This document shows, one piece after another, positions 1 to 29,636 of a stretch of 64,000 nt of DNA. The notes beneath the pieces were generated by a model. It did not search any database. It was not told where the DNA came from and saw only the letters and a program-made list of their open reading frames with translations. The stretch is from Hyaloraphidium curvatum (lineage: Eukaryota; Monoblepharomycota; Hyaloraphidiomycetes; Hyaloraphidiales; Hyaloraphidiaceae), in the NCBI GenBank assembly GCA_025558095.1, contig JAIVFI010000010.1, forward strand, positions 744,001 through 808,000, written 5' to 3'. Each line of letters begins with the position of its first letter. Within the stretch, counting starts at the first letter, position 1. Both the position numbers and the translations under genes were made by a program.

Positions 1-504
1 CTAACGGCCCTCTGGCGGCATCGCTTCTCACTGGTGCAGTCGGGTTGGCCCATGATCCTCTTTGTCGCCCTGCCCTGGACTCTCTACGGCATCGCCAGCG
101 TCGCCGTCGGCAACTGCCTCCCCGCCTTCGTGCTCATTGGCCTGAGCCTCATCGCCGTCAATGTCGTCGCGGACCTCGTCAACTTCGCCTCGGGAAACGC
201 GCAGATCGGCTCCGTCCTGGAGCTGTACCGCGCCGCCTCCTTCGAGATCCGCCGGCTCGTCGCCCGCGCGCGGGAACCAGGCTCCCTTGCCTCCGACCGC
301 GCCGTTTTGCGCGCCGAGGCCGCGGACAGGCTGCTCGAGTCGTGCCTGGCCGCGGAAAGGTTCGAGGCCAAACTGTTCGGCGCCGCGGTCGATACCGCCG
401 GGGTGAGGAGGTTCGCGGCGGGGCTGGTGACCGTCGCGCTGGGGTTCTACTCCGTGCTCAGGGGGAGCGGGGTGGTGCTGACCATGGACAACTACTGCCG
501 GTGA
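1..504 (+). CDS. Family A membrane protein, 3' part only (cut by window edge)
   Basis: The frame is open from base 1 and ends with TGA at 502-504, giving the last 167 residues of a larger protein. It has two or three hydrophobic stretches (residues 18-55 and 135-155). It aligns end to end with the C-terminal third of the gene at 27972-29636: a Trp-Arg pair followed by a Phe-Ser-Leu-hydrophobic stretch, then a helix pair, a polar region and a last membrane segment followed by a short tail with a Cys. I do not recognise the family and give it no function. The 5' part lies outside the window. An ATG at 52 is in frame but is probably internal, because the homology runs upstream of it to base 1. 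Confidence 0.6.
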   Translation, partial: LTALWRHRFSLVQSGWPMILFVALPWTLYGIASVAVGNCLPAFVLIGLSLIAVNVVADLVNFASGNAQIGSVLELYRAASFEIRRLVARAREPGSLASDRAVLRAEAADRLLESCLAAERFEAKLFGAAVDTAGVRRFAAGLVTVALGFYSVLRGSGVVLTMDNYCR

Positions 505-1116
505 ATGTAAACGGGAGCGTCCCATTTTTCGGCACCCTGGTCTCCTCGAGGAGGGTGATGGACAGCAGCAGCAGAATGCATCCTGCGAGTTGCGCCCTCC
601 ACCGCTTCGTGTTGGCCCCTGGACTCATCCTGTACCCAGCCGCTGGCTCCATACACCTCACCGGGAGGGCGCGGCCGCCATGGTCCCGTCCTGAAGCAAT
701 CCCGATCCCGAAATTGATCCACCTGCAACTTCCCGCATCCGGCACCTACCGCCGCTACGCGCTGCTGCGGGTAGTGGGGCCGTAGGCGAGGGACGAGCCG
801 TAGGACCATCCCTCTCTACCCGCACTACCCGCAGCTGCTGCCGCACTCGCTCGCCCGTGGCTATACGACACACTTCCCAGCACGGCTGCTGCTGCCCGTC
901 GGTTACGAGACTCAGCTGTCCCCAAACTCTCCCGCACCAGCAAAGATCGCCTAGCTACAGCTCCGCCCCCCCAGAGTCGAAAGCATTAGACTTTCCGTTC
1001 CGTCGCATGGAGCGAAAACATCGTTTGAGCCGAAAGTGTGGTTAATTGACGGCGGAAGAGGCGAGCACGGACTGGCTGCACACGCACGCTTCCATCGAGG
1101 ACTTCGACGAAGCTAG

Positions 1117-2305
1117 GAACAGGCCGAACATGACACGGTCGGGCTTGCCCCGGCGGAGTGGCTCGTGCTTTTCCCCGCCCCGCCGGCTGAGCCCCGGAGT
1201 GCCACGTGGATCCTTGCGCCCGACGAGCGGCTGGCGGATCCCGCCGCGGCGGCGCGGGCCGCGTCGCCGCTGACGCGCGCGGCGCTGCTCGCCGGGCTGT
1301 GCGGGCGGCCGCTCCTGCGCGGCATTGTGTTGCTGCAGTTCGCGGCCGCGCCGCTGGGCGCCCACTCGCGGGCCCGCGCCGCCGCGTTCGCCGCGGGCTC
1401 GGCCGCGCTCGTCGGCCCCGTGTGGGCGCTGAACGACGGGCGCTTCGCGCGGCGGCAGCTCGTCGGGGGCTCCGCCGCCGTCGCCGCGTTCCTCGCCATC
1501 CTGGTCGGCACCGTGGCCGCCACCGGCAGCTGGCGGGGCCGCTTCGCAACGGCCGCGCCCGGGCAGCCGCCGGCAGACGTGAGCTCGCACGCGCTGGCGT
1601 CGCTGGTGCGGTGGAGGCAGCTGGTGGATATGGCCCCCGATCGCGCCGCGAAGCCCGAGTCGCAGGGGGAGGCGGGCGTCGGATCCGGGGTGCCGCACAG
1701 GAGCGTGCTGCTCGACCACGAGCCCAACGACCCCTTCTGCCCGTGCCCGGCTGACGGGTGTGCGGGCCGTCTGGTTGCTTCCGTCGGTTACGTCAAGCTC
1801 CTGGACGGGACCCTGAGGATGTTGGCGGCCGCGATCGGGACCTTTTACGTGCAGCAGTGGACGGCTTTCGTCACCTTCGGACCGGCCTTCTGGACCACGT
1901 GGTGGTGCGTCGTCCTGGGGCTGCTAGTGAAGTGGGTCCCCGGCTCCCGATTGCTCGCCCGCTTCCCGCTCAGCATACCGTTTCCCCGCAGTCGCCGGAA
2001 GCTGGTGGTGGTTCTTCCCCAACACGTGGTCCCGCTTCACGACGCAGCTCCCCCTGCTCCGGCTCGACCTCCGCCTCCAGCACCGGGCCATGTCCCGCGC
2101 CCTCCGTTGCCTGCTGCGGCGGTACCGCGCCGGCCTGATGGGAGCCGCCGCCGGGCCCCCGCCGGCCGCGGCGCAGGACGAGCTGTACGTTCAGCTCCAC
2201 GCGCTCCTAACCGCGGCGTGGCAAAGCCGCATGTCCTCGCTCTATACATACGCCCGACGTCATTCGATGGAGGGGCATTCCGAGTTCATCACCGCTGCTC
2301 ATTAG
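1117..2305 (+). pseudogene. Family A membrane protein, incomplete copy
   Basis: The frame is open from just after an in-frame TAG (1114-1116) to about 1995, then shifts to a second frame that ends at TAG 2303-2305. The product resembles the first two thirds of the 27972 gene: an N-terminal Glu-Trp-Leu motif, two membrane segments, the shared motif RWRQL, a Cys-Pro-Cys/Cys-x-Gly-Arg motif, more membrane segments, and an Arg-Tyr-Arg-Ala segment followed by Leu-x-x-x-Trp. A GT-AG intron of about 60-75 nt near 1925-2000 could join the two frames, but no start codon fits upstream and the last membrane segment seen in the other copies is missing. It is either a degenerate copy or a gene whose first exon I cannot find. 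Its stop codon interlocks with that of the convergent methyltransferase gene. Confidence 0.5.
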
Positions 2306-3282
2306 CCCGCCGCCTCGCCCTGCTCCGTCACAACCACCTCCCCGTCCGGCCGCACCAGGACAAAGAACGCGCTCTGGACGTACCCCGGCCCCTCCGCCAA
2401 CCCCTTCAACGCCTCCCCCCGCGCCCCCTTCACCCGTTCCCACACGTCCGCCGCCGAGTGGAGGTACCGCGCGCAACCCCCGCACCGCGCCAGGGTTTCG
2501 AAGACCAGCGCGCCCTCTGCGGACGGCCGCCGCTCGCGGGGGGGTTCGGGGTCCGCGGGTTCCAGGAGGTCGTGCATGGACGCCAGCGCGGCGCGGCCGG
2601 GGGCCAGCATGCGCGCGGCGGGGAGCACGATTTTGGATAGGTAGGTGCGGATGCAGGGCTCGTCGTGGCACGTGTCGACGTGGAGGTAGTCCGGCGGCTG
2701 GACGAGGGCGGCCGGTGCGGTCGAGGCGAGGTCGCCGAGGTGCAGGCGGAAGCGGGCGAGGTATCTCGAGCGCAGGTCGGGGGGCAGGCAGGGGTGGAGG
2801 AACGCTGTGGTGTTGAACACGTCCAGGCCGACGACCTCGGCGCCGTCCAGGGCGCCGGCGGCGTCCAGCGCGGCGAGGATGTACAGCGTCGAATGGCCCA
2901 GCGCGGGCGACACCTCGAGCACGCGTCTGGGGCGGTGCGCGCGCACGCGGAGGTACAGCAGCTCCGACTCTGCGGCGCCGGTGAGGCACGGCGCGAGGTG
3001 CGGCAGGCCGGATTGCTTGAGCAGCGGCGCCAGGCACGCGCAGTACTCGGACGAGAGGGCGCGCACGCGGCGGAGGTCGGCGGCGTGGCGGCGATAGGCG
3101 GCGGTGTACGCGGCGGCGGGATCGGCCCACTCCGCGTCGGGGGATGCCCAAACGGGGTCGCGGTCCGCCGGGCCGGGCGCCGACCGCCATAGCAGCGCAC
3201 CCATTACGAGCAGCGCCGCCACAGCCGCCGCGTAGCCGTGCAGGAGCGACATCGCGAGGGGCGTGTGGGCCGGGAGGAACAC
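2302..3282 (-). CDS. Membrane-anchored class I SAM-dependent methyltransferase
   Basis: A single-exon gene of 326 residues. An N-terminal hydrophobic segment (about residues 10-30) looks like a signal anchor. The rest has a Rossmann methyltransferase core: motif I as VLEVSPALGHST near residue 121, an acidic strand-2 end (VVGLDVF), and a post-motif Asp-Thr-Cys-His-Asp segment. This pattern is typical of the Methyltransf_24/O-methyltransferase-like group, which often modifies sugars or small molecules. The substrate cannot be read from the sequence. The gene is divergent from the glycosyltransferase at 3664, with a 380 nt shared upstream region, so the two may act together on a surface glycan in the secretory pathway; that link is inference. 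The ATG at 3280-3282 precedes the anchor; a second ATG ten codons on is also possible. Confidence 0.7.
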   Translation of the reverse strand: MFLPAHTPLAMSLLHGYAAAVAALLVMGALLWRSAPGPADRDPVWASPDAEWADPAAAYTAAYRRHAADLRRVRALSSEYCACLAPLLKQSGLPHLAPCLTGAAESELLYLRVRAHRPRRVLEVSPALGHSTLYILAALDAAGALDGAEVVGLDVFNTTAFLHPCLPPDLRSRYLARFRLHLGDLASTAPAALVQPPDYLHVDTCHDEPCIRTYLSKIVLPAARMLAPGRAALASMHDLLEPADPEPPRERRPSAEGALVFETLARCGGCARYLHSAADVWERVKGARGEALKGLAEGPGYVQSAFFVLVRPDGEVVVTEQGEAAG

Positions 3283-3663
3283 TTAAATGGGGTCTGCGAG
3301 GAGGAGACTCGCAGGAACAACGGGACAGGGACGGGACCTCGAATGTCTCGAACGCATCCCGGCACCCCACGATACGGAGTGCTCTTCCCGGTCGTGGCGA
3401 GCCGTCGCCGGCCCCCGATCGCACGGATGCCTCGCCCGGCATAGCGACGCCCGCGGCTCCGCACAGAGATCGCGATAGGAGCCCGCGTCGCGAGAGCATC
3501 CTACGAGCGGGAGCCGGCCGAGATCAAGCCAGAGAGCGCTTTCAGAAGCCGCGTGAAACGCCGGCAGAGCGCTCCATTAGTGTATACTGAGGAGCCCGAC
3601 CGAAGCCGTCCCTCATTTACCAGCCCGGCCCACCGAGTTATTGGCCCGCCGTCCGCCGCCGCA
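3283..3663. promoter_or_regulatory. Divergent intergenic region, methyltransferase/glycosyltransferase
   Basis: This 381 bp stretch separates the two divergent starts. The glycosyltransferase frame is open upstream to 3553 but only with a GTG start; the ATG at 3664 sits directly before the membrane anchor. I see no recognisable box or RNA gene. Confidence 0.3.
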
Positions 3664-5790
3664 ATGCGGGTGTGGATCGCCCTCGCGGCGCTGCTCGTGG
3701 GGATCGTTTCGTACCTCACGCCGCCGCCGCCGGCGCAATGCCCGGCGTACGCGTGCGTGGCGTGCCCCGCGCCGACGCCGTGCCCGCCGGCGGCCTGCCC
3801 GCCGGCCAGCTGCCCGCCGCCCCCTCCCCCTCCGCCGCCGGCGGCGCCCGCACGGCGCGTGGTTTTCGTTTCGGGCGAGCCGGGGCCCGCGTCGGCCGCC
3901 GGCAACGCCCACCGCGTGGTGCGCGCAGCCGCCGCCGTGAAGCTGGCCGGTTGGGAGGCGGCCGCCGTCCCCATAACGGACCTCGAATCCGAAAAAGCCC
4001 GCGGGAACGCATTCGCCGGCGCCGCAGTGGTCGTCGTGTGGCGCGCGCCGTGGGGCCCGCTGCTCGAATCGGTCTACGGCGCCGCCAGGGCCGCGGGGGC
4101 AAAGGTCGCCTACGACCTGGACGACATGATGCTCGACCCGGCCCTGGCCGACCCGAAGTTCATCGACGCCGTGCGGTTCCACGACGCCGCCGGCATCAGG
4201 GATCTCTACTCGAGGGTCAGGGACGCGGCGCTGCGCGCGGATTTCTGCCTCGCCCCGACCCGCCCTCTGGCCGAGGCGTTCGCCGTGCACGCCAAGCCGG
4301 CCTACCTGGTCCCCAACGGCTACACCGCAAAAGGCCTCGCGCTCGCGGAGCGCCTTCATGCCCGCGGGTGCGGCTCCCGCGACGGCCGGCGCCGGATCGG
4401 CTACGCCAGCGGCACCCTGACGCACCAGGCCGACCTGCGCGAGGCGCTCCCCGCGCTCGTACGCCTGATGGGGGAGCGGGATGATCTGCGGCTCGTGTTC
4501 TTCAGGGGCGGGATCGACCTCGCCGAGTTCCCGGACCTGGAGCCGTACCGCGAGAGGATCGAGCTCCGCGACCCCGTGCCCGTGGGCCGCACCATCGAAG
4601 AGGTCTGCCGGTTCGACGTCAACATCGTGCCGCTGCAGATCAACCCCTTCACGGACGCCAAATCGGAGCTCAAGTTCCACGAGGCCGCGCTGCTCCGCAT
4701 CCCCACGGCGGCCAGCCCCACCGCGCCCCATCAGGAGTCGATCGAACACGGCGTGAACGGCGTGCTCTGTGCCAACGCAACGGCATGGTACGCCAGGCTG
4801 TCGGGGCTGCTGGACGACCGGGAGCTGGCGGCGGAGCTGGGCCAGAGGGCGTACGAGTCCGCGCTGTGGCGCTTCTCCCCCGAGCGCCGCGGCAGACTGT
4901 ATGCCCTCGCGTTCAAACACGCGCTGGCCGAGGAGCACGAGGCGGCGATGGTCTGGCCGGCCTACGCGGCCGAGATCGGCACGGGGCCGGGATATTTCCA
5001 CGAGCTGCCCGAAGACTACCACGCCGTCTTCGACAGCGAGGATGGCAAGCCGCCGCCGGACGGGACCGCCGAGGTGGCGGTGATCCTGGCGAGCTACAAC
5101 CAGGCCGGCTTCCTCAACGAATCCCTCGCCTCGATCCTGGCCCAGCGCGACCTCGCTTCGATCGAGGTGATCGCCGTGGACGACCTCTCCCCCGACGCCT
5201 CGGCGGGCATCATCGCGGCCTGGATGCGCCTCCACGCCCCGCGCTTCCGCCGCGCCATCCTCCTGCGCCCCAAGCGCAACGCCGGCCTCGCCGCCTCCCG
5301 CAACGCCGCGCTCACCATGGCCCGCGCCCCGTTCGCCATGATCCTCGACGCCGACAACCACCTCCTCCCGGACTGCATCCACCGCCTCCTCGCCGCCCTG
5401 AAGCCGACCGACGCCGCGTTCGCCTTCCCCGTCCTCCAGCAGTTCGGCGACGCCAAGAACAGGATGGGCGCGCTCCTTTTCTCCCCCGCCGTCCTCGCCG
5501 GCGGGAACCAGATCGACGCCATGGTGCTCCTCCGCCGCTCCGCGTGGGCCGCAGCGGGGGGGTACCGCCAGTTCCACGGGTGGGAGGACTACCGCATGTG
5601 GCTCGCCATGTCCGAAAAGGGGATGTACGGGATCCGGTTGGGGGGCGAGCCGGCGGCGGGGTACAGGGTGAGGCTGAGGGGGAGCATGAGCGCGGAGGAC
5701 AGCAGTCCGAACAGGAGGGGGATGAACGGGGTGCTGAGGCAGGAGAGGAGGTGGTTGTACATGGGGAAGTTTTTGAGGGGGGGGCAGTAG
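3664..5790 (+). CDS. Two-domain glycosyltransferase (GT4-like plus GT2) with N-terminal anchor
   Basis: A single exon of 708 residues. A membrane anchor (residues 3-20) is followed by a linker of repeated Cys-Pro/Pro-Ala units and nine prolines. Residues 60-430 resemble GT-B sugar transferases of the GT1/GT4 type, with the segment YDLDDMMLDP and a C-terminal lobe containing SELKFHEAALLRIPTAAS, where GT-B enzymes usually bind the nucleotide sugar. Residues 455-690 form a GT-A (GT2) domain: VAVILASYNQAGFLNESL, VDDLSPD and the DxD-like ILDADNHLLPD. Such tandem GT4-GT2 proteins are common in bacterial O-antigen or capsule loci, and the lack of introns among intron-rich neighbours fits acquisition by transfer; this is inference. 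The likely site is the Golgi or ER lumen. Confidence 0.75.
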   Translation: MRVWIALAALLVGIVSYLTPPPPAQCPAYACVACPAPTPCPPAACPPASCPPPPPPPPPAAPARRVVFVSGEPGPASAAGNAHRVVRAAAAVKLAGWEAAAVPITDLESEKARGNAFAGAAVVVVWRAPWGPLLESVYGAARAAGAKVAYDLDDMMLDPALADPKFIDAVRFHDAAGIRDLYSRVRDAALRADFCLAPTRPLAEAFAVHAKPAYLVPNGYTAKGLALAERLHARGCGSRDGRRRIGYASGTLTHQADLREALPALVRLMGERDDLRLVFFRGGIDLAEFPDLEPYRERIELRDPVPVGRTIEEVCRFDVNIVPLQINPFTDAKSELKFHEAALLRIPTAASPTAPHQESIEHGVNGVLCANATAWYARLSGLLDDRELAAELGQRAYESALWRFSPERRGRLYALAFKHALAEEHEAAMVWPAYAAEIGTGPGYFHELPEDYHAVFDSEDGKPPPDGTAEVAVILASYNQAGFLNESLASILAQRDLASIEVIAVDDLSPDASAGIIAAWMRLHAPRFRRAILLRPKRNAGLAASRNAALTMARAPFAMILDADNHLLPDCIHRLLAALKPTDAAFAFPVLQQFGDAKNRMGALLFSPAVLAGGNQIDAMVLLRRSAWAAAGGYRQFHGWEDYRMWLAMSEKGMYGIRLGGEPAAGYRVRLRGSMSAEDSSPNRRGMNGVLRQERRWLYMGKFLRGGQ

Positions 5791-6015
5791 GGGCGGACTT
5801 GGCTGGGGGGTGGTGTGAGAGGCGTCCCGACCGGCGCGGCTGTATCCGGACGTATCGACGGAATCCGGGCCATCCGATGTCAGAGGTGCTATCCACGGAA
5901 TCCGGGCTAGGATCCGTATTCGCCAAATCTGGTCGTCCAACGTGTGGAGGCGGCGGGTCCCGCCATGGTTCCGCCGAAGTCTCCATCGCTGCACGTACCC
6001 GGCGACCGAATCGCC

Positions 6016-6315
6016 ATGGCGTCTGCACCGTCGGACGCGCCCTTCACGCGGGAGGAATGGTTCGCGATTTTGCCCGAGGCCACCGCGGATCCGCCGGACC
6101 TGTTTCCTTCTGTCGACGACAGGCGACGGGCCAGGAGAGGGCGCGAAGGAACCCCCGCCCGCGACGGTTCCGATCGACGAGGCGGTGGCCGCGACGGCGC
6201 ACTTTTCGCCGCTGCTGGCGTCCATGGCGCGCGGCTTGGCCTGGTTGGAGAAGCCGTCCGACTTGGCAGAGGGCACACGCAAGGTGCCGAACAACGTGCA
6301 TTCGAACGGCGAGAC
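6016..6315 (+). pseudogene. Probable N-terminal remnant of family A
   Basis: From an ATG at 6016 the frame reads a short peptide with the motif FTREEWFAILPE, which resembles the N-terminal FTLSEAEWLALLPD of the full-length gene at 27972. After about 30 codons the similarity moves to another frame (about 6140-6290), which contains DEAVAATAHFSPLLASMARGL, comparable to the next segment of the copy at 1117. No intron phase joins the frames and the downstream membrane segments are absent. I read it as a decayed 5' fragment. The match is short, so this call is weak. Confidence 0.3.
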
Positions 6316-6532
6316 CCCGTTCGGATTTGTCATTGCCTGCCCCGACGATGCCCCGCAGCAGCCGGTAAAAGTCGCTGCCGGCTGCCGGTGTGTTTGGGAT
6401 GCATTCGCAAGGTCGTTCCGCGGTTGTTCCGCGGGTCCTTCCGCGGTCCCCCCGGGTTCAAAACTCCGGGGCCCGCATGCTCGCAACGGGACAAGCGGCA
6501 AATAATCGCAGAGAACATCATCGGGCGCAAAG

Positions 6533-7659: not shown

Positions 7660-10600
7660 CTACGCCCCAAGAATCAGCTCCTCATCTACATTCAAACCAA
7701 AAGCGACCGGCGCGGGGGCCGGAGCGTTGACAGCGGCGGCTTCGGTGCACAGCTGAAGCCAGTGTTGGAGTTGGGCCGCGACGCCAAGAGCCCAGGCCAC
7801 CGCGATCCGTTCGCGGAAGCGCCGCACAAAACGAGAGTAAAGGCCATCGAGGTCCACGGGCTGCCCATCGCGGCCGACGATCCCGGGATACTGGATGCGC
7901 CCCATCTCCGAGGAGAAGCGCGAGAAAGTGGCAGAGACAGCGCTGTACGAATCAAAAGCAAGCACGATCAGAGGGTAGAAGTTGGCGTTGAAGACGAAAC
8001 GGGAGTAGTCCTTCCTGGCGGCCTCGACCCGCCGTTCGACTGCGTGGCCCGGGACCGAGAAGACCAGGCCCGTGTGCAAATGGGCCATAGAGGTGAGGGT
8101 CTTGATCTCGAGCAACCACCGTTTCCGGGTTTCGCGGTGCGTGATGAGAATGTCGCCAAGGCGGCCAGCATCCGCAGGCGTGGGCGGGGTGACAGTCTCG
8201 TAGCCATGCGCAAGGAGGTTTGGCGGCATGGGGTGCACGCGGAGGAGCGGGATGGAGCGAAGCGCCGCGCGGATGGCCGCGCAAATGTCGTCGTGACCAG
8301 GACTGAAGAGATCCCGGCCATAGCAGCCCGAGAACGCGTGCTCCCCCGTCAGCGACATGGCCGATCGCTTGCAGCCCCGCCGGCAGGGCAAGGAAAGACC
8401 AGGGTAGTCGGCCTCGTGCAGGAGCGGGAGGCAAAGCCGGAAGCGTACAAGTAAGCGGAAAAAGTTGTTGCGAATGTGGTTGGCAAGCAGCGCGGGAGAG
8501 GCAGTCAGGAAAGCCGACAGGCCGTCCTGCGCCTGGACGAGCCGCTTGCGGCGCTCCAGACCAGCGGAAGTGTCGGGTTGCAAGGCAATCAGAGCCGCGA
8601 GGCGGCGCTGGTCCTCGAGACGCGTAAGGTCGCTCTGCAGGCCGTGCCAGACCGGCTGAGCGAAGAAACTGGCGTCCGCAGGGAGCGTACGGCGGGCGGG
8701 CGCGGCGCCCACCGGTTGCCCAGCACGCGCAGCCTCGGCGTACGCTGCGGCCGTGTCATCCTCGACACGCTCAAAGGCGGGGCGGAGGGCCTCGATGACG
8801 GGAACCAGTTCCCGCACGTGCTCCACGCCCACACCCCGGGCCGAGGTTCGAAGACCAAGCATGGCGTCCAAGGGGCCCGCCGTGAGGTTGAGTGAAGACA
8901 GGTAAGCCGCCGAGGCCACCTTCTCCGATGACAGAAGCCCCATCCCCGAGTAGTGCAGACCCAAGAATACCTGCTCCCGCACAGTCCGACCCTCCACCGA
9001 CAGCGGATCCAGATCCTCGGCCCGATCTCCCAGCAAGCGCAAGAAGGTGGTGAAAAGCGCGTTGTCAAGACGTCGAGCAAAGGGTTGGGTAACCGAGGGG
9101 GGGAGAATGCGGAGCCAAAACGAGAAGAGCTGGGTCACACAGAGACGGAGGAGGGAGTACAGGCCCTGGAGGGAGGGGATGTCGGCCGGCATGGCGTAGC
9201 CGAGCGCGGCGCGCTCGATTTCATCGAGAAGAGCGGCAATGGAGTCGATCTTGGCCGCGAGGAACGACTCCACATAGGCAGGGGTGCCGACCGGGGCACC
9301 TACCACCTTGAGGCCGCACGAGCGAGCGAAGTCAGGCGAGCCCGGGGCCGACGCCGTGGCATGCACCTCGGGGTCGGCCTCGTGAGGCGGGAAGCCAGCG
9401 ACGCGGATGTTGTGGGCCGCACCGGCCGCGCGCACCCGCTCCAGCACGGCCGGGTTCGTCGAGAGCGAAAGCAGGTAGCTCTTGTCCGGGCGGTGGGTCA
9501 TGCCGAGGGAAGAAAGGCCGTCACGCACCTCTCCCAGGACGGCCATGACCGAGTCCAGCGGCCCGACCACGGTGAGGTCGTCGAGGTACCCAAGGATGAG
9601 GCAGTCGGGGTGCCCAGAGCGGATGGGCCGCAGCATGCGGCTCATGGCGCAGGAGAAGATGGCAGACGACAGCGGGTCGCCCTGGATGTTGCCCTCGTAC
9701 ATGGTGATCCGGAAAAGGAGCTCCGCCGAGCGCCGGTCGCGGAAGTAGGCGTGGGAAGGGCGCGAGTAAACGAGGTTGTAGTACGGGATAAGCTGAGGCA
9801 CCTGGCGGACCACCTCGCGCGCGAAGAGGCGGCGCAGCGTATTGAAGGCGTTCCTAGAGTCGACCTTCATGACGACGTGGTCGGGGAAGGCCGCCAGCCA
9901 CGCGTTCACCGCGTGGGCGGTCGCCTCCGCGCCCCCGTCCACCCCGTGACCCAGGTCCTCCTGCTGTTGGAGCTTCCTCAGAAGAGCCTTGTGCCGCACG
10001 GCCAGGTACGAGCCCGCGAGCCGCGTGATGCCCTCCATAATGCCAATCGGCCGGAGCCCCCCCTCCGGCTTGAGCAGAGGGACGAGGATTTGATCCGTGA
10101 GGAGCGGCCGGAGCATGGGGGTGTCGAGTCGGCCAGTGCACACGCCATGCACCATGGCCGCCAGCGGGCGGAGCTTCCGCCGCGTCGCGTCGTTCTCGCA
10201 GTTGTGCACGATGAAAAGTTTGGCCATGCTGAAACCCGACATGCCGGCCCCCACGCCGTCCTTCTTCCGGCGCAACCGGGCCCAGATGTCCTCCAGGAAA
10301 GCCGCGTCCGTGTAGGCAGGGCAGGGCGCGGGCGCGTTGGGGGGCAGAGACAGCCGACACAGCGGCTCTCCCTCCCGCGGCCCCGGGTACAGCTCCTCCA
10401 GTTCCGCCTGAAGCGTGGGCGTGAAGCCAGCCGGAACGGCCTCCCCCGAGAGGGCCGCGGACGCAGCACCAGGAGCGCCCTTCAAGGCGGCAAGCACGAT
10501 GGACTTGAAGAGCTGGTAGTTGAGCGGCCGCAGCCCGTCCCGCCGCGCGCCCCGGTTGACCTGACGGGCGGCGAAGTAGTTCTGCTCGTACATGTAGTCC

Positions 10601-11466
10601 CCCGACATGACGTAGCCGCCAAACGCAAGGTAGGCGGTGAGAGTGCGGTGCAGGTCGGTTTCCGGTGCCGCCGGGTCCTCGTAGGCCCGTTGGAAAGACT
10701 CGCTGGCCCGGAAGGCGAGCGTGCTCCAGGTGGTGGTCCGGTAGCGGTGCTTCAGCGGCTCCGGCGGCGGCGCCCCCGCGCCCCCGCCCGGCGGCGGATC
10801 AGGCCCGGGACCCCCGGGTGGACCACCGTCGCCTGGGTCGCCCGGATCACCGCCGTTGCCGTGCCCGCCAGCCGCGGCGTTGCCGCCCGGCGCGCCGTCG
10901 CCGCCTGGGGGATCACCGCCGTCCGGGGCGGCACGCGCCGCCGCCGCCGCCGCCGCCAGCGCCGCCCGTTGCGCCTGGCCGTCCTGCGGGGCGTCGGCCG
11001 CAACCCGGGCGGCCGCAAGGGCCGCCATCAGCGCGGGCGCGGGTGGCGAAGCACGGGGAGATGCCGACGATGCCGCTGGTGACGCCGGTCCCTCCGCGCG
11101 TCCCGTGGCAGCCGCCCGCTCGGCACGCACGCGGTCGAGGAACTCGACGAGATCGGGTGGAAGCGAAGCTAAAGAGACGCCGAGTGGCGGGTTAGCTGCG
11201 TCCGGGTTGCACGAGGTGTGCTGTCCAGAAACACCGGCACCAGAGGCGTTTGCGGCGTAGGGACGCCGGCAACCCCCGCACCGCGCTAGCCCCATGGCGC
11301 GCAACGCATCGGCAGACAGGCGCTGCATCGCCAACCAGTGCTCCGGGCTCCGTGTGACCCGAAGATGACCGTCCCGTTTGTTTTTGTTTGGAGTTGGCTG
11401 GAAGCGGCAACCATCAACCGGGCACTCATGGAGGCCGGGTTCAGCAGGCGCCTCCGCCATCGGCAC
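7660..11466 (-). mobile_element. Non-LTR retroelement ORF: reverse transcriptase with restriction-like endonuclease motif
   Basis: One uninterrupted frame of 1268 residues. The N-terminus has two possible zinc fingers (C-x4-C-x13-H-x8-H near residue 15 and C-x2-C-x16-H-x2-C near 60) and a Gly/Pro/Ala-rich spacer. Reverse-transcriptase motifs follow: A with VMKVDSRNAFN near residue 530, B with QGDPLSSAIFS near 590, C with LGYLDDLTVV near 627. The C-terminus carries a C-x3-C-x10-H-x4-C finger near 1027 and then GDILITHRETRKRWLLEIK near 1102-1122, the D...ExK arrangement of the endonuclease of R2/NeSL/CRE-type elements. There is no APE endonuclease or RNase H motif in view. The absence of stops over 3.8 kb suggests recent activity or cellular use. 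The long plus-strand frames opposite are shadows. Confidence 0.85.
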
Positions 11467-12927: not shown

Positions 12928-13194
12928 GCGAGGCGTTTGACATGGTCCAAGAAGTCGAGACGGGACGGGCTGATCTCGGTGGCTTGCTGACAGGTGCTTG
13001 ACTTGAAACCAGATGTACATCATTCGCTGCCTTTCAATTTGATTGCTTTTATGAGAACGAGCTCAGGTCAGACGTGGTTTGCCTTCGGCTAAGGGCGTCC
13101 CTGATTCCGCGGGAGACAATCCGCACTCACTCCGTGTGTTGTGCGCGCTTCTCTGTACTCACTCCGTGTCGCCGTCCGCGACCCGAATCCCGCA

Positions 13195-14876
13195 ATGAAC
13201 GGCAACCACGCCAACGGCAAGACCGAGATGAACGGTGCGGACGCGCTCATCGCCACGCTGGTGGCCAACGGCGTCACCGCCTGCTTCGCGAATCCCGGCA
13301 CGAGCGAAATGCAGTTTGTCTCGGCGCTCGACCGCGAGCCGCGAATGCGCGGCGTCCTGTGCCTCTTCGAGGGCGTCTGCACCGGCGCCGCCGACGGATT
13401 CGCCCGCATGGCCGGCACTCCGGCGTGCACGCTGCTGCACCTCGGGCCCGGCCTCGCCAACGCGTCCGCCAACCTGCACAACGCCCGCCGCGCCTTCTCG
13501 CCCATCGTCAACGTCGTCGGCGACCACGCGACGTACCACCGGAAGCACGATGCCCCGCTCAACTCGGACATTGCCGCCCTGGCCAAGCCCAACTCGATCT
13601 GGATCAAGTCCGCCGACGCGCCCGACGACGTGGGGCCGGCCACGGCCGAGTGCATCCTCGCCAGCTACGGGCCGCCGGGCGGCGTGGCGACGCTGATTCT
13701 GCCGGCCGATGCAGCGTGGCTGCCGGCGACCAAGGTCGGGGGGAAGGTCGAGAAGCCGGCGAAAGCCAAGGTCGCCGCGGACCAGGTGCAGAAGGTCGCC
13801 GGCGAGATCAAGGCCGCCAAGAGCCCCGTCATCTTCCTCGGTGGGTCATGCGTTGCTTCTGCCGTTGATATTGCTGACGGATTCGTTTCCAGGCACGGGA
13901 GCGTGCGAGGACGTCGGGCTTGCTGCTGCAGCTCGCCTTGCGGCCGCCGGCCTTCGCGTGATGAACGACACCTTCACCGCCCGGCAGGCGCGCGGCGCCG
14001 GACGGTACCATCCTGAAAAACTCCCGTACTTCGGAGAACAAGCACTCGACGCTCTCGGCCCCACAGACCTTATGGTCTTCGTGGAAACGGTCCAACCTGT
14101 CGCCTTTTTCGCCTACCCCAACCGCCCCAGCGTGCTCGTTCCCGAGGGCTGCGCAACCACCACCCTCGCCTCCCGCGGGCAGGACGGCGTCGCCGCCCTC
14201 CACACCCTCGCCGACCTCCTTGGGGCCCCGAAGTCCGGCCCTGTCGAGCAGCTCTCCCTCCCCGCCTCCCCACCGACCGGCAAGCTCGACCCCGCGGCCT
14301 GCGCCGTGTCGATCGCAAGGCACATGCCCGAGAACGCGATCATCTGCGACGACGCGGTCACCTCTGGCGCCCCGATCTACGCACTCACCAAGACGGCCCG
14401 GCCCCACGATTGGATTCTCGTAACGGGCGGCGCGATCGGCCAGGCGATCCCTCTCTGCATCGGCGCAGCGGTTGCGTGTCCTGAGAGGAAAGTTCTTTCG
14501 CTCAATGGCGATGGCGCGGCCATGTACACCGTGCAGGGGCTTTGGACCATCGCGAGGGAGAACCTGGACGTCACCGTGGTCGTGTTCGCCAACCACAGCT
14601 ACAAAATCCTCAAGTACGTCCCTTTGTTTCGGCCCCTCGGATCGAACTGACGCCGACCTGCCCCGTAGCATCGAGCTTGCCCGCACCGGCGCCGGCCCCG
14701 CCGGCCCCACCGCCAAGAAGCTGCTCGACCTCGACGAGCCCAAGATCGACTGGGTGTCGCTGGCCAAGGGGCTGGGGATGCCGGCGGTGCGGTGCGAGAC
14801 GGGGGAGAGCTTCGAGGCCGAGATGGAGAACGCGATGAAGGGCAAGGGGCCGTTCTTCATCGAGGCGGCGATCTGA
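13195..14876 (+). CDS. TPP-dependent acetolactate synthase/benzoylformate decarboxylase-like enzyme
   Basis: Exons 13195-13840, 13893-14613 and 14669-14876 give 524 residues, close to the usual 520-570 of the family. The N-terminal pyrimidine-binding domain shows ACFANPGTSEMQFV and the activating glutamate in CLFEGVCTGAADGFARM. The C-terminal domain has the diphosphate/Mg motif as LNGDGAAMYTVQGLW followed by VFANHSYKIL (the GDG...N pattern). Catalysis would be decarboxylation or carboligation of 2-keto acids using thiamine diphosphate. The compact form without an organellar signal resembles bacterial catabolic members rather than fungal mitochondrial Ilv2. It stands tail to tail with the MBL-fold gene and begins a run of four small-molecule enzymes. 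Confidence 0.85.
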
Positions 14877-14959
14877 AGAAGAAAGAAGTCGAAGAAGAGA
14901 TGCAGTGTACAAAGATGCTTCGGCCGCCGGCCGCTTTTTGTCAACAGTGAAGTTGTGAT

Positions 14960-20848: not shown

Positions 20849-21157
20849 GGCCGCGCGCGGGGGGGGGAACGCGTTTGTTGGTGTTCGGCCGGGGGCGGTT
20901 AGCGCCTCCTATCAGCCCCCCAGCAGTTAGCCCCCTCTAACCACCCCCGGCCCCCGAATCCCCCGGGTCGTTTGCCGCTTTTCTGCAATTCCAATTCCGC
21001 CCGCACTTACTGCCTCCACCGCATCGCATTCCCGGCCCCGCCCAGCCGGCGCACACCCTCGCCCCGCGCTCCCCTTCCCCGCCCCGAAAACGGCCCGCCC
21101 TCCCGCGCCCGCCGCTTCCCCGCCCCACGGCACCCCGCCCGGCACCCCCCGCTCGCG

Positions 21158-22018: not shown

Positions 22019-22267
22019 TCAAAACGCCGGACACACGCTCTCCACCGTGACCCGCACCCCCGCGGCCCTGAGCACGCTCCACAGCCCCAGCAGCACCGTG
22101 ACCAAGCTGGCCGCGATCCCGCGCGCGGTGCCGTACCCCACCGTGATCCCCAGCACGCGCCGACGGTACCGCGCCGCCTGCTCCAGAAACAGGGCGAGCA
22201 CGGCGTCGTGCGCGGCGATCTCCGCGCGGAGGGCCGGCGACGAAGAGGGCGCGGCTGGTTCATTGAG
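22019..22267 (-). pseudogene. C-terminal remnant of family A
   Basis: An open stretch of 82 codons between an in-frame TGA (22270-22268) and its own stop. The translation has VLGITVGYGTARGIAASLVT followed by a hydrophobic helix and a tail with VESVCPAF. This lines up with the last segment of the full-length gene at 27972 (GIVVGYGVVRAVFATTATLL, ending DALCPGPG). It has no start codon or upstream membrane segments, so it is a 3' relic left beside the GNAT gene. Confidence 0.5.
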
Positions 22268-22396
22268 TCAGAGGGGAACGAACAAAGGCGGCGTCCGCCA
22301 GTTCGTCGTAGTGGAGCGAGCTATGAAAGCTCTGGAATCTGTTTCGCGATCCTCCGCACTCTACGATCCAACGACACGGTCCGCGGACCTTCCGCC

Positions 22397-23068
22397 CTAT
22401 CCATGCGCAACATCGAGGTCCAAGCACATAAAGTTCAGCTCCATCTCGTGCTTGGTCCCCTCCCAAAACTTCCCACGCCCCTTGAGCACGAACTCGAACC
22501 TCTCGTAGAACTTGACGAGGCTCGCGTCGCAGTCCAGGTCCACGCGCAGCCTGCCCATCCCCGCCGTACGGGCCTGTTCCACAGCCCAGGCGAGGAGGTC
22601 CTCCATCACCGCGCCGGCGATGCCCTTGCCCCTGTACCCTTCGGCGGTGGCCATCATCTGCACGTGGGCCTTGGCCCCGGGGCAGTACTCCTTTGAGTAG
22701 GACTCCGTGAGCGCCGCGACGCCCCCGACGTGCGTCATGTGGTCCGCCCCGTATTCACGTTCCCATTCCGCGAGGAATTCCGCGGTGGGCGCCGCCATGT
22801 CGAACCCGGAATCGAACCTGCACGAGCCGGTGCCGACCACGCGCCCGGTGCCGGGGTCGCGGAGGACGACGGCGCGCGCGGTGCCGGCGAGCATCGTCCC
22901 GAGGCGGAACGCGAAGACGAAGCGGATGAAGGGCAGGCGCTTCGCCGGGGGAAGCGGCTCCGCCGCGGACGAGTAGCCGGGGAGGTGCGCCAAAGCCGAG
23001 GCGCAAAGGTCCGTGGCTTCCGGGAGGGAGGCGGCGTCGAGGGGCTCGAGGGCGTAAGGGCGGTGCAT
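22397..23068 (-). CDS. GNAT-family N-acetyltransferase
   Basis: A single exon of 223 residues. The acetyl-CoA-binding motif A is clear: VQMMATAEGYRGKGIAGAVM, with the R/Q-x-x-G-x-G/A signature as YRGKGIAG. It is followed by motif B-like VDLDCDASLVKFYERFEFV. This is the common layout of small-molecule or protein GNATs (for example the fungal GNAT relatives of puromycin acetyltransferase). The substrate is unknown. It is divergent from the WW-domain gene, with 295 bp between starts. Confidence 0.85.
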   Translation of the reverse strand: MHRPYALEPLDAASLPEATDLCASALAHLPGYSSAAEPLPPAKRLPFIRFVFAFRLGTMLAGTARAVVLRDPGTGRVVGTGSCRFDSGFDMAAPTAEFLAEWEREYGADHMTHVGGVAALTESYSKEYCPGAKAHVQMMATAEGYRGKGIAGAVMEDLLAWAVEQARTAGMGRLRVDLDCDASLVKFYERFEFVLKGRGKFWEGTKHEMELNFMCLDLDVAHG

Positions 23069-23363
23069 TGCTGGCTCTTTGGCAGGGGAAAGGGGCACGG
23101 GATGGGGAACTGGAGGTTGGGGGACGGTATGTTTTCCGCGGAAGTGTCCGTGGAAGCTTCGAGGAATTCGGGGCCGGGCGACATCTTTTAACCGCCGCAT
23201 GCGGCCACATGTTGGACATAGCATCCAAAGCAATCCATCTGCGCGATTCGAAACCATTAGACGCCACGCCCACCTGGCCGAAGGTTGTCTGCAGCATCCA
23301 ATCCCTTCCAGGGTCCGCGGGTCCGCCGACATCCCCCACCACATCCCCGCCCATCCCGTCGCA

Positions 23364-24274
23364 ATGGCCGCCGCGCAGGACGCGCCGCCGGCGTGGCTCT
23401 CGCAGCCGCTGCCCGCCGGCTGGGTGTCGGAGTTCGACGCGAACCACCAGGTCCGTCCTCCGCGGGTGAACACGGAGGCAAAAGTGCTGATCTCCAGGGC
23501 GTCGGCAGGCCTGGTACTTTGTCGACACCACGAAGAAGCCGCCGTTCGTCACGTGGGACGACCCGCGCGAGCCGCCCGAGGCCGCGGCCCCCGCGGCCCC
23601 CGCTGCCGCCCCCGCGGCCCCGGCCCCCGCCGCCCCCGCGCAGCTGGTCGCCCCCGCCGCCGTGCCCGCGGGGAACACCGGCGTCGCCCCCGGCGAGCAG
23701 CCGCTCCCCGCCGGCTGGCTCAAGGCGCTCGACAAGGCGAGCGGGCGGTACTTCTTCATCGACCCGAAGCAGGCCGTGACCTGGGACGACCCGCGGACAC
23801 CCGAGGGTACGCCGGCGCCCGTCCGCGCTCCCGATCCCGGGAACCTGATCCCCTGCCGGCAGTCGAAAAGGCACCGTCGAACCCCAACAAGAAGCCCGCG
23901 CCCGCCCCGGCGCCCGCCGCTGCCCCCGCACCGGCACCCGCCGCCCCCGCGGGCCCCAAACCGCCCCCGCCCCCGCCGCGCACCGACGTCATCCCCCTCT
24001 CCGTGTCGGCCCCCTCCCCCTCGGCCAACCCCGTCGCGCCGCCGCCCCCGGGCGAACCCAAGAAGAAGCACGGCTTCTGGACCGGTGGGTCGTCCTTGCC
24101 TCCCGGTCGTTCCGGCTGACGGTTGCTTCCGGTACAGGTGCCGCGATCGGCGCCGGCACCGCGCTCGTGATCTTCAACCCCATCAGCGCCGTGATCGTCG
24201 GCGGCGCGGCCGCGGTGGGCTACGTGAGCAGCAAGATGGGCGACTCGGACGACGAGAAGGACAAGAAGAAGTAG
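23364..24274 (+). CDS. Two-WW-domain protein with glycine-rich hydrophobic C-terminus
   Basis: Exons 23364-23450, 23509-23806, 23863-24084 and 24138-24274, 247 residues. Two WW domains are present: LPAGWVSEFDANHQ/AWYFVDTTKKPPFVTWDDP (joined across intron 1) and LPAGWLKALDKASGRYFFID followed by VTWDDP. Ala/Pro-rich linkers lie between and after them. The last exon encodes a glycine/alanine/valine-rich hydrophobic segment (GAAIGAGTALVIFNP, IVGGAAAVGYV), possibly a membrane-associating hairpin, then an acidic/lysine tail. WW domains bind Pro-rich ligands; this protein itself contains such runs. The role is unknown. Confidence 0.8.
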
Positions 24275-24534
24275 GCCGCAGGGCCCGGGGGTTCGGTCGT
24301 CGGCGGGTCGGGTCCATCGGCGTGGGCGGGGGACGGACGGCGGGGGGGCGGAGGCGAGAAGTAATCTATGGGCCGTCCCGCGGGGCGGCCGGTACGTAAG
24401 ACAGAGATGATGCGATTCCACTACCCCGGCCGATCTGCGGAATCGCAACGGGTCAGTCGCCGTCCCGTGGCAACTGCCGAGCGGCACGATGAATACCCAC
24501 CGAAAACGTTCCAACGGACACCACCACGCGCGCA

Positions 24535-25676: not shown

Positions 25677-26057
25677 CGGCCCGTCCCCCTCGTCGCCGCC
25701 CGGACCGGCGTCCGCCATCCTGGGCCGCTCGTCGCCCCGACGCCGCCGGCTGTCGCTTGAGCACCGATTTAGACGCCCGCCAGCAGGCCCGCACGGGGCA
25801 GGGCGCGGAGCTGCGCGGGGGGCGGCGTGGGGACGCGGGTGGGGGTCCGCGGGGTCCGCACGGTGCGGGGTTGAGGGATGGCGCGAACGGGGGATCGCGC
25901 CCGAAGCGCCGCGAGGGAAGGGACGGGAGGGCTCTGTGTTAGAGGGGAAGAGAAGAATGCAAGGAGGAAGCGGGATAACGGGACGGATGGATGGATGAAA
26001 CCGTGGAGTGCACTCCCCACCGGTGACTCATCACCAGACCGGGCGAAGGCAACAACG

Positions 26058-26702
26058 ATGGCATCCGACGACAAAGACGTCCAGGACTTGTTTGCGGGTC
26101 CCTTCGAATACGTCGACCGCGACAAGCTGGAGCGCTCCGTGGTCGGCATCCTCGTCGAGCCCGTGCTCGCCGCCTCCGGCCCCCCGCCCCGGCGCCTCCT
26201 CATCGGCATCGACTTCGATCTTTCCGCCGAGGACCTCTCCACCCGCGACGGCCGCCTGCGCGCCGCGTTCCGCGCCTTCCGCGGGAACGAGACCGCCGTA
26301 ATGCGGGCCGCCGGGGCCGGGCTGCGCGCGTGCCCCGCGTGCGGCGATGCGTGCCCGACGCTGCAGATGTCCATCTTCCTGGACTGGTTCGGCGGGCTCG
26401 CTGCCGCAGGTTTTGGCGGCCGGGCGCTCGACGTGGCGCACGTGCGCGCCGCCCCGACCTGCAAGAGGCCGGCCTGCGTACGGGTTGGGAACAGGATCGT
26501 GCAGGGTCCGAAGCCCGACCACGGGGACTCGTCAAAGGGTTACTTCTGCGGCGCGTGCGGGAGGTTCGCGAAGAAGAAGGAGGACTTGAGGCAGTGCGCG
26601 GGCTGCGGGAGGGCCTACTACTGCGGGAAGGAGTGCCAGAGGACGGCCTGGCCCGAGCACAAGGCAGACTGCGGGTCTTTGACCGGCCGCCAGCAAGAGT
26701 AG
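26058..26702 (+). CDS. MYND-type zinc finger protein
   Basis: A single exon of 214 residues. The C-terminal 45 residues are a MYND finger: C-G-A-C in FCGACGRFAKKKE, then LRQCAGCGRAYYCGKECQ and WPEHKADC, with all zinc ligands in place. The first about 100 residues are mostly helical-looking, and an extra Cys-x2-Cys (CPACGDAC) sits in the middle. MYND domains mediate protein-protein contacts in transcription or chromatin factors. There is no SET domain. The start ATG at 26058 is the first in frame after a 380 bp spacer shared with the divergent WGR gene. Confidence 0.85.
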   Translation: MASDDKDVQDLFAGPFEYVDRDKLERSVVGILVEPVLAASGPPPRRLLIGIDFDLSAEDLSTRDGRLRAAFRAFRGNETAVMRAAGAGLRACPACGDACPTLQMSIFLDWFGGLAAAGFGGRALDVAHVRAAPTCKRPACVRVGNRIVQGPKPDHGDSSKGYFCGACGRFAKKKEDLRQCAGCGRAYYCGKECQRTAWPEHKADCGSLTGRQQE

Positions 26703-27172
26703 CCGCACGGGTATGGTGCCAGTCGATTTGAGGCGGAAGGGTCGCCACCGGGGGAACCGGCGGCGCCTGGCGACGAACCTGGCCAAGGACCCGCGGATCC
26801 CCCACAAAAATGACCGAGTGCGGCTCCGAAGATGGAGGAAATCAGGAAACAAGCTCGCATTGCCCATTTTCCGCGCGGATCCGCCTCCAGTCCGGCGCCG
26901 AACCGCCCCGTCCCCGCCGAGTCCGACCACCCCTTCCCCGCCTCGTCCACCGCCCACCCGCGTCCCACGCCCCGTGCGACGAAGTTCCTTTCCATTTTCA
27001 GCGAGCTCCCGCGTCCCCACTGCGGTCCAAAGTCCCCGCGCCGCGCGCCGGCCGCGCCCTCTGCGACGCGTCCGCCCCGCTGCCTCCTCCCCACTGCCCC
27101 CTTCCCACGACGCTCCCGCCCGCCCCCGCTCCTGCGAGTCCGCCGAAAGAAAGTGGGCCGCCCGCGGGAGGT
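26703..27172. other. Intergenic region, no gene recognised
   Basis: These 470 bp lie between two convergent genes (MYND on plus, OST4 on minus). Long GC-rich frames run on both strands, but none has family motifs. It probably holds the two 3' UTRs. Confidence 0.4.
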
Positions 27173-27286
27173 TCACTCCCTCTCCGCCTGGCCGTCGACC
27201 CAGTGGTACGCCAGGATGAGGGCAAAGATGAGCGAGCCCAGGAGGTTGACGGCCGCCGCGAGGGCGTCGTCCGAGATGTGGAGCAT
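27173..27286 (-). CDS. OST4: Oligosaccharyltransferase subunit Ost4
   Basis: A 37-residue protein on the minus strand, easily missed because of its size. MLHISDDALAAAVNLLG is followed by SLIFALILAYHWVD and a short charged tail. This matches Ost4: Met, a short polar start with Ile-Ser/Thr-Asp, one membrane helix, then a Tyr-His-x-Val tail; yeast Ost4 is 36 residues. It would stabilise the STT3-OST3/6 subcomplex of the ER oligosaccharyltransferase. The frame stays open upstream to a possible start at 27451, but that extension is low-complexity and I take the internal ATG (27286) as the start. Confidence 0.8.
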   Translation of the reverse strand: MLHISDDALAAAVNLLGSLIFALILAYHWVDGQAERE

Positions 27287-27971
27287 CGTCCTAGATGAGG
27301 GAAACGGGGTTGCGGCGGCGCCCGGGAGGAGGAAGCGCGCGCAAAGGGCGGGGAAGGTGAAAGACGACGCGTTTCCGCTGGACGCGGCGGGCCGTGCGGA
27401 ACGGTGCCAAGTGGGCGGATGGCGAGGCTCGACGCGTGCGCCCTTCCTCATGCGGCTCGACTTCCCCAGCTATACACGACAGCACCTGGTGGACTTCAAA
27501 GTGACGGGAGGGCCGAAACCGCGGATGCCTGGACGACGGTGGGTGGGCAGCTCGGTGGTATGTCGACCGTCGACCGCTCCTTCTTCGCTGGTTCATTGCC
27601 CTCACGCACCAGATCCACACAGGGCTCGTCAGTCTCCATTGTTCTCATTCGGCTGTTGTGCGTCGCAGAAGAGGATGACGAGACCTGGATCAGCCGGCGC
27701 ACGTACGGGGACACGGAGATGAAGATGCTCGTCGCCAGTCATTGACCACCGGGAATTTCAACGCTGGCGAAGAGAGCTGCGGCAGAGCTTCCATGTGAAA
27801 ATGTGTAAAGCTGGGCGGATTTCCGGGAGGAGCAAGGCATCTCGCTGAGCATCTCGCGTGCGTCCCCTTCCATCCTCCCCCGGATGTTGCATCGTCACAT
27901 CAGGCGTCCAGAGCTAGAATCGTCCTCGAAAATTGGCCTCGGCGCTCACGTGGCGTCGAATCAAGGGCTAA
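27287..27971. other. Intergenic region, no gene recognised
   Basis: 685 bp between OST4 and the full-length family A gene. Frames of up to 113 codons exist on both strands but show no motif, signal peptide or homology I can see. It presumably holds the two divergent promoters. Confidence 0.35.
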
Positions 27972-29636
27972 ATGAAGCCACAGGGCGGTGGACGAGGGAC
28001 GTGCGCGACGCACTCGTCGGGGCGGCCACCAAACATTGGCTTCCCCATGCAGCGCGCTTCCCGCGCCGGCCCCCGCCGGCCGTCGCTTTCCGCGCCGCCG
28101 TTCACTCTCAGCGAGGCCGAGTGGCTTGCCCTGCTCCCGGACGACCGTGTTCTGCGTTCGGTGCCCGTTCCGCTGTCGACGCGGCCCCTGCCCGACCCCG
28201 CCGAGCGCCTCCGCGCCGAGAACCCGCTGACGCCGCCTGTCACGCGTGCGCAACTGACCGCGGATGGCTACAGCTGGCTGTCCCCCTCCGTACACGCGGC
28301 GTATTTCGTCTCGCGGGCGCCGCCGTTCCACCTCTTCTTCGGGCTCGCCGCGTCCTTCGCGGTACCGCTGTGCGCCGCCTTTTCGGCGCAGGCCGTCGTT
28401 GCCGTCTCAGACCCCGAGGGGCGCTTCGGCACGAGGCAGATCGCAGCGGGCACCGCCGCCTGCGTGCTCACGGTGCTCTGCTACGGCATCCCGTTCCTCA
28501 TCCCCATCTTGACGGGCTCCGCGCCGCCCGGCCGCAAGCCGGGCGCGCACGTCGACTCCAGCCTGTGGGTCTCGGGCGCCTACATCCGCTGGCGGCAGCT
28601 CTTTGCCGGCCCCACCCCCTCGCGGCTGGTCGAGCACGCGCCGGGCGACAGGCTGTGCCCGTGCGCGCTGCCCTCCTGCTCGGGACGGTGGTTCGACTGG
28701 GACCTGGCCTTCCGCGCCGTGCTGGCGCCCCGGGACGTCGTCATGCGCGGGCTCGTCGCGGTGCTCCAGCTCTGGACGCTCGCGGTGACGTTTGGCGGGC
28801 GCTCGTGGACCACCCCCTGGACGGCATTCGTCATGTGCCTCGCCGTCGCGGCGTGGGTGCCGACCGCCGCGGCCGTCACCTTCTCGGTGGGAGCGCTGGT
28901 GGACATGCCGCCGGGGATAAGGGCGTCGGGGAAGCTGCAGTGCAGGGCCATGAAACTCGTGCTGGTGGACCTCCTAGCGCGGTACCGCGCTGCGCTGTTG
29001 CCCGAGCGTGGTGAACCCTTGGATGGCGAGGCCGAGGAAAACAAAGATGACAAACCTGCTCCGTCTATGGGGTGCGACGCCGCGCACGACCTCGATGGAG
29101 CAACTGAAGGCGAGGACTACTACGTGACCCTGCACTCGTACCTCCGCGGCATCTGGCGCGGCAAGCTCATGTTCAGCCTGCAACGCGCCATCCTCACGTC
29201 CTACGGGACCGCCATCTGCATCTCCCTCGTGCTCAACGCTGCCGCGGGCTCCTGCATTCCGCTGTGGATCCTCGTCTTCCTCCTCTCCACGCTGATCGGC
29301 GTGTTCGCCGACCTCCTCCGGCTCGCGGACCACAACGCCCAGCCGGAACTCGTCTCCTCGCTCCTCCGCGACGCCGCGCTCGAAGCCCGCTCCATCCTCC
29401 TCCGCGCCCCGCCAGGGCCCCTGCCGGACCGCCTCGCCCGCCACGCGACCGTGCTCTCCTCCCTCGCGGACCCGCAGGCGCACCACCGCGGCACCTTTTT
29501 GGGCATCGTGGTCGGCTACGGCGTGGTCAGGGCGGTGTTCGCGACCACGGCAACGCTGCTGCTGGCCGCGTGGACGGTGGCCAGGGCGTTCGGGCTGGTG
29601 GTGGTGCTGGATGCGCTGTGTCCCGGGCCGGGGTAA
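27972..29636 (+). CDS. Family A multi-pass membrane protein, full-length reference copy
   Basis: An intronless 554-residue protein and the only complete member of this family in the window. Predicted features: an N-terminal FTLSEAEWLALLPDD; hydrophobic segments near residues 115-140, 158-185, 255-310 (two), 410-455 (two) and 515-545; the motif RWRQL before a Cys-Pro-Cys/Cys-Ser-Gly-Arg cluster near residue 235; and a cytosolic acidic loop with DGEAEENKDDK. About seven membrane segments are likely. I do not recognise it: it lacks the C-terminal TYxxxxxQ signature of gustatory-receptor-like proteins and shows no transporter motif. Four other copies or fragments (1-504, 1117-2305, 6016-6315, 22019-22267) are in this window, so the family has expanded. 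An internal ATG at 28047 is an alternative start. Confidence 0.7.
   Translation: MKPQGGGRGTCATHSSGRPPNIGFPMQRASRAGPRRPSLSAPPFTLSEAEWLALLPDDRVLRSVPVPLSTRPLPDPAERLRAENPLTPPVTRAQLTADGYSWLSPSVHAAYFVSRAPPFHLFFGLAASFAVPLCAAFSAQAVVAVSDPEGRFGTRQIAAGTAACVLTVLCYGIPFLIPILTGSAPPGRKPGAHVDSSLWVSGAYIRWRQLFAGPTPSRLVEHAPGDRLCPCALPSCSGRWFDWDLAFRAVLAPRDVVMRGLVAVLQLWTLAVTFGGRSWTTPWTAFVMCLAVAAWVPTAAAVTFSVGALVDMPPGIRASGKLQCRAMKLVLVDLLARYRAALLPERGEPLDGEAEENKDDKPAPSMGCDAAHDLDGATEGEDYYVTLHSYLRGIWRGKLMFSLQRAILTSYGTAICISLVLNAAAGSCIPLWILVFLLSTLIGVFADLLRLADHNAQPELVSSLLRDAALEARSILLRAPPGPLPDRLARHATVLSSLADPQAHHRGTFLGIVVGYGVVRAVFATTATLLLAAWTVARAFGLVVVLDALCPGPG

Follow-up and report, generated by a model that had tools for sequence, protein, structure and literature searches.

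A large fungal family of seven-helix membrane proteins that may work like insect odorant and gustatory receptors

The 64,000-nucleotide stretch of DNA analyzed here (C10:744001-808000, hereafter the window) carries members of an undescribed large family of predicted membrane proteins, for which Pfam, NCBIfam and the PDB hold no sequence match. The most likely reading, to which we give an even chance on the strength of analogy, is that this huge fungal seven-helix family works like the insect odorant and gustatory receptors (ORs and GRs), that is, like members of the 7TMIC or GRL superfamily. From this analogy we infer homology of the family to the 7TMICs. Somewhat under even is the chance we give to the bolder statement that the fungus independently evolved an insect-scale repertoire, in the hundreds, of OR/GR-type ligand-gated ion channels, by far the largest outside insects, with a zinc-braced cytosolic loop that is not known from animals.

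The single-exon gene at 27972-29636 (plus strand) is intact and encodes 554 aa, with an N-terminal FTLSEAEWLALLP motif, seven transmembrane (TM) helices, a His-Cys-Cys-Cys cluster, a conserved TM7 and a Cys tail. All six frames of the window were scanned with a profile of 29 full-length relatives, and reversed sequences served as the background control, with a best E of 0.034. This gene covered profile positions 1-488 (match at 27972-29633, E 9e-139). The initial annotation had listed it together with four partial copies. Four of these five copies (27972-29636, 1-504, 1117-2302 and 22022-22267) are far above background and thus real, but the fifth, at 6016-6315, gave a weak match of E 0.02 over 39 profile positions, which is about the level of the reversed control and not above it. 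No additional copies were found by the six-frame profile scan at 30-64 kb of the window.

The copy at 1-504 (plus strand; match at 1-501, profile positions 324-486, E 1.5e-42), which had been described as partial, encodes the last 167 aa of another full-length, intact gene. Upstream sequence (C10:741500-744100) was joined to the window through an identical 100-base overlap, which showed that the gene starts some 1.07 kb before position 1 and forms a single 522-aa open frame at profile positions 4-486. The copy is thus complete and only appeared partial because the window begins inside it, and two full-length copies touch the window (27972-29636, and 1-504 with its upstream part). About 0.6 kb downstream and in the same direction lies a truncated tandem duplicate (1117-2302, plus strand), which extends from the N-terminus to TM4 and cytosolic loop 2 and is missing TM5-TM7. 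Its first block (1117-1929) matched profile positions 5-250 in one frame, from the N-terminus to TM4 (E 9e-63), and its second block (1988-2263) matched positions 250-342, cytosolic loop 2, in another frame (E 1e-20); the six-frame scan gave no downstream profile match to the C-terminal third. This copy has its own H-D-CPC-C-G cluster at 1717-1766. Its frame breaks near profile position 250 and could reflect an intron or a frameshift; an intron may be the cause because a member elsewhere, L064, breaks near the same position. A Methyltransf_24 gene (2302-3282, minus strand) starts at the end of the truncated copy and occupies the place of its TM5-TM7.

A C-terminal relic at 22022-22267 (minus strand) comprises the end of loop 3, TM7 and the Cys tail (profile positions 412-488, E 5e-33). 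Directly upstream of it, on the same strand, is a GNAT acetyltransferase gene (22397-23473, minus strand). Within the weak fifth match, positions 6016-6150 (plus strand) read MASAPSDAPFTREEWFAILPEA... and align to profile positions 3-41 with an E of 0.02. That this segment is an N-terminal relic of the family is plausible, and we retain it as a probable one because the start motif EW-h-h-h-h-P (EW, four hydrophobic residues and P) was seen three times in the window against an expected 0.025.

Genome-wide, the family is far larger than the five copies reported at the outset. Four different family queries were run against the own genome (31.9 Mb, 55 contigs), yielding 123 matches for the 554-aa protein and 118, 91 and at least 150 for the other three. 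Merged by position, the matches formed at least 240-243 separate loci on 46 of the 55 contigs, which is a lower bound; a crude capture-recapture estimate between query pairs gave 150-360 loci. The identity of members to the window protein was 23-31%. In two contig pairs (C17/C47 and C30/C48), the family matches have the same scores and the same spacing on both contigs, which suggests haplotype duplicates or a segmental duplication in the assembly, so that a few loci may be double-counted.

These loci form a family that is mostly intact and constrained, with decay being exceptional. A stop codon was present in only 3 of the 91 matches of one query, and typical open frames were 500-700 aa long. 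About 25 of the at least 150 C-terminal matches were short frames beginning just before TM5. Many of these are probably last exons rather than fragments, since the one short frame inspected in detail, L062, has a canonical intron (GTGAGT...TTGCAG) across which ILNL is spliced to IGGLCIPAW. L062, L063 and L064 form a subgroup in which a short intron (about 60 bases) directly precedes the GGxC motif that follows TM5; the acceptor region of L063 is unlike that of L062, where GTGAGT...TTGCAG is clear. Two related members share an intron with consensus splice sites at the same place. Across 20 close paralogue pairs, dN/dS ranged from 0.18 to 0.54, indicating purifying selection. Hence, of the repeated duplication and decay that had been proposed from the window, duplication is borne out, whereas decay does not describe a family dominated by frames of this length under such selection.

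The genome itself looks fungal from its sequence. The 15 best PDB matches to the ribosomal protein L3 main exon, which we take to be fungal entries (yeasts, fission yeast, Chaetomium, Candida and Neurospora), outscored those of animals and plants by at least 12 bits, and the query does not have the insertion shown by animals (about 9 residues) and plants (4 residues). The flagellate Cafeteria, which GC content had first suggested as host, was rejected on this L3 comparison; the host may be an early-diverging, GC-rich fungus. Several chitin-synthase genes are also present. Searches without a positive control gave no match to one axoneme family and a sub-threshold match to one IFT family. Elsewhere in the window, an open frame of 1268 aa at 7660-11466 (minus strand) contains a Pfam RVT_1 reverse transcriptase domain; by eye, its N-terminus shows a Cys/His stretch and its C-terminus a Cys-His and endonuclease-like region, and it is probably a non-LTR retrotransposon. 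A 745-aa single-exon protein with fused GT1-type and GT2-type glycosyltransferase domains is encoded at 3553-5790 (plus strand), a TPP-dependent enzyme (TPP_enzyme_N and TPP_enzyme_C) at 13141-14944 (plus strand) in at least two frames, hence with short introns, and a MYND-finger protein at 25878-26702 (plus strand).

Searches of the sequence databases agreed with the earlier description of an unrecognized multi-pass family. The 29 members had nothing above chance in Pfam, where scattered single hits reached a best E of 0.012, and neither 7tm_6 nor 7tm_7 matched the family by sequence. A Pfam 7tm_7 search of the own genome was empty, but so was its control, which makes it uninformative. The profile search of PDB sequences gave no match below E 0.84, NCBIfam gave no significant match, and a single family protein used as query found no relative among viral or prokaryotic contigs. 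When the H-D-CPC-C-G cluster was searched for as a DNA pattern, it was present in at least 6 viral and at least 97 prokaryotic stretches. These were rejected as relatives because the shared motif alone explains their scores against the family profile, which were at most 19.8 bits, compared with more than 100 bits for members. G-protein-coupled receptors (GPCRs) were also rejected: the GPCR N-terminus is extracellular whereas that of the family is predicted to be inside, and none of the 29 members had a GPCR hit in Pfam.

Alignment-averaged hydropathy resolved seven membrane segments, namely TM1, TM2, TM3, TM4, the double segment TM5 and TM6, and TM7. Among the 29 members, K+R per 10 residues was 1.0-1.9 for the N-terminal flank and for loops 2, 4 and 6, against 0.46 in loop 3, 0.12 in loop 5 and 0.13 in the tail; loop 1, at 0.95, is intermediate. 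From this distribution of basic residues, the positive-inside rule predicts an inside N-terminus and an outside C-terminus. In this predicted topology the inside loops measure 67-82 residues and the outside loops 6-11. Helix lengths were read from proline and gap patterns in an alignment of 43 members, with residues numbered in a 514-aa scheme whose first position is residue 41 in the 554-aa protein. Three almost ungapped helices stand out: helix 6 (residues 391-438, 48 residues, 0.8% proline), a short helix before TM7 (residues 444-458, 15 residues, 0.7%) and TM7 (residues 478-500, 23 residues, 0.2%). Proline is similarly scarce in residues 281-302 (0.7%). In loop 4, by contrast, the linker 303-338 contains 13% proline and 45% gaps, and the TM5-TM6 loop spans about 6 residues. 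Two structure models, one from a single sequence and one from a three-row alignment, both of window sequences only, were of low confidence (mean pLDDT 42 and 47.6); helices common to both were 339-384, 391-415/418-438, 444-458 and 462-499. Foldseek/VIA lists for the pLDDT 47.6 model contained unrelated helical proteins and no insect receptors, but the quality of the model is too low to judge from these.

Several residues do not vary among full-length members. H182, C189, C191, C196, R285, T488, G501 and C510 are invariant in 43/43 comparable members, C388 and N415 in 44/44, and T229 is kept in 42/43. The cluster H-x3-D-x2-C-P-C-x4-C-x-G lies at 28635-28684 (plus strand) in cytosolic loop 1, between TM2 and TM3, and contains H182, C189, C191 and C196; this pattern occurred twice in the window, against 0 expected from shuffles. 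C388 in the TM5-TM6 loop and C510 in the tail are both outside by the predicted topology. Based on these placements, the cluster probably binds zinc and the two cysteines probably form a disulfide. Both the His-Cys-Cys-Cys cluster and the outside cysteine pair look new. Identity among distant pairs was 15-23% for TM1-TM6, 34% for the RLQxRA helix, 40% for TM7, 42% for the loop-1 cluster and 56% for the TM5-TM6 loop (outside loop 3). Segment dN/dS, measured on seven close pairs, was highest in TM2 (0.64), TM5 (0.58) and TM1 (0.53), compared with 0.19 in TM7 and 0.10 in the TM5-TM6 loop, with purifying selection in every segment measured. Helices other than TM7 hold few conserved polar or charged residues.

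If the family does work as receptor channels, the parts could act as follows. The N-terminus would lie in the cytosol, helices 1-6 would form a variable pocket that binds and senses ligands, and helix 7 would line a cation pore. The cytosolic extensions of helices 4-6, together with the short helix before TM7, may hold a tetramer together. Zinc bound by the His-Cys-Cys-Cys cluster in cytosolic loop 1 would brace the cytosolic side, and a C388-C510 disulfide would fasten the end of TM7 to helices 5/6. Several points speak against such a channel: the low-pLDDT models, no match to 7tm_6 or 7tm_7, the near-complete absence of TYhhhhhQF, and the longer loop 1. Seven TM helices with an inside N-terminus are also found in unrelated proteins. 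We give roughly a one-in-three chance to a lineage-specific seven-helix family outside the 7TMICs, whose members might, for example, be transporters, zinc-dependent membrane enzymes or receptors that signal via cytosolic partners, and whose topology would be convergent. It would accommodate the invariant cytosolic His-Cys-Cys-Cys cluster, a feature that we do not know from insect receptors, as well as the missing sequence match to any 7TMIC family and the pLDDT values of the models. However, a transporter or membrane enzyme would be expected to conserve polar or charged residues in its helices, and these are few outside TM7. An enzyme also sits poorly with a copy number in the hundreds, which is commoner for receptors than for enzymes. 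The TM5/TM6 extensions, the helix before TM7 and the conservation of TM7 itself are instead what a pore helix and its anchor domain would show.

Two further explanations draw on the family's size and relics. The comparison with receptor or surface-antigen families made in the initial annotation holds for receptor-like duplication, but a variable surface family for self/non-self recognition or antigenic variation is rather improbable. It would agree with a large, divergent and partly tandem family that includes relics and truncated copies. The predicted outside loops, however, are tiny and among the most conserved, nearly invariant parts; surface antigens, which vary in their exposed parts, are less likely because here the variable parts are the membrane helices and the cytosolic linkers, and no segment measured departs from purifying selection. 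Highly improbable is a decaying or mobile repeat family with no cellular function. The relics in the window (22022-22267 minus and 6016-6150) are what such a family would leave, but intact frames dominate, dN/dS is well below 1, and the intron shared by two related members has consensus splice sites in the same place.

A limited set of GPCRs accounts for most of what is understood of fungal chemosensing. If they are receptors, the 240 or more intact seven-helix proteins of this one fungus, under selection and with an inside N-terminus, would rank among the largest receptor families known in unicellular eukaryotes. Confirmation of the fold would mean that an insect-type chemoreceptor channel radiated at such a scale more than once; even with a different fold, a large membrane-protein family would be added that has no Pfam, NCBIfam or PDB entry.

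Known GRL candidates were selected as proteins that belong to no other family (or have a reciprocal best hit to a known GRL), are 350-500 aa long, and have seven TM helices, an intracellular N-terminus and intracellular loops longer than the extracellular ones (PMC7746228). The present family shares four of these five properties and is slightly over in length: Pfam, PDB and NCBIfam assign it to no other protein family, averaged hydropathy gives seven TM helices, the positive-inside prediction over 29 members puts the N-terminus inside, and inside loops of 67-82 residues compare with outside loops of 6-11. Its aligned core measures 470-540 aa versus the 350-500 aa of GRLs, the excess coming mainly from loop 1. 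GRLs are already known from early-diverging fungi, with single genes in two Spizellomyces species that keep 1/4 of the TM7-motif positions (PMC7746228). The family resembles these in most screening properties, and its Thr equals at most one motif position, but it has at least 240 loci rather than one gene per genome, is longer (about 490-550 aa) and has invariant residues of its own. Longer cytosolic loops and the lack of a TM7 motif are also seen in other divergent proteins of the 7TMIC fold, the DUF3537 and PHTF proteins of plants and algae; these differ in forming small families with separate Pfam models, none of which matches the family.

Compared with insect ORs and GRs (7tm_6 and 7tm_7; Orco, MhOr5 and BmGr9), the family has no detectable sequence similarity, and it differs in its loop 1 of about 60 residues, the invariant His-Cys-Cys-Cys, the outside cysteine pair and an FxxxEWLALxP N-terminal motif. 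The insect GR signature TYhhhhhQF in TM7 is reduced to the invariant Thr (T488), with Y, Q and F absent. As this motif is largely lost outside insects (PMC9998090), its loss excludes an insect-type GR but not the superfamily. In BmGr9, S5, S6, S7a and S7b measure 53, 45, 15 and 21 residues, the S5-S6 loop has 5 residues and the S4-S5 loop is disordered (PMC11100771). From TM3 onward the layout of the family is close to this (48, 15 and 23 residues versus S6, S7a and S7b), and the main difference is cytosolic loop 1, with 5 residues in BmGr9 versus about 60. In common with the insect receptors, the family shows seven TM helices, a predicted inside N-terminus and outside C-terminus, inside loops longer than outside ones, a tiny S5-S6 loop, long cytosolic TM5/TM6 extensions, a short helix before TM7, TM7 as the best conserved helix, and a large divergent gene family. 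Insect ORs combine a variable pocket with a conserved gate (PMC13207653), and by analogy the variable helices 1-6 and conserved TM7 of the fungal family are the same variable-pocket, conserved-gate pattern.
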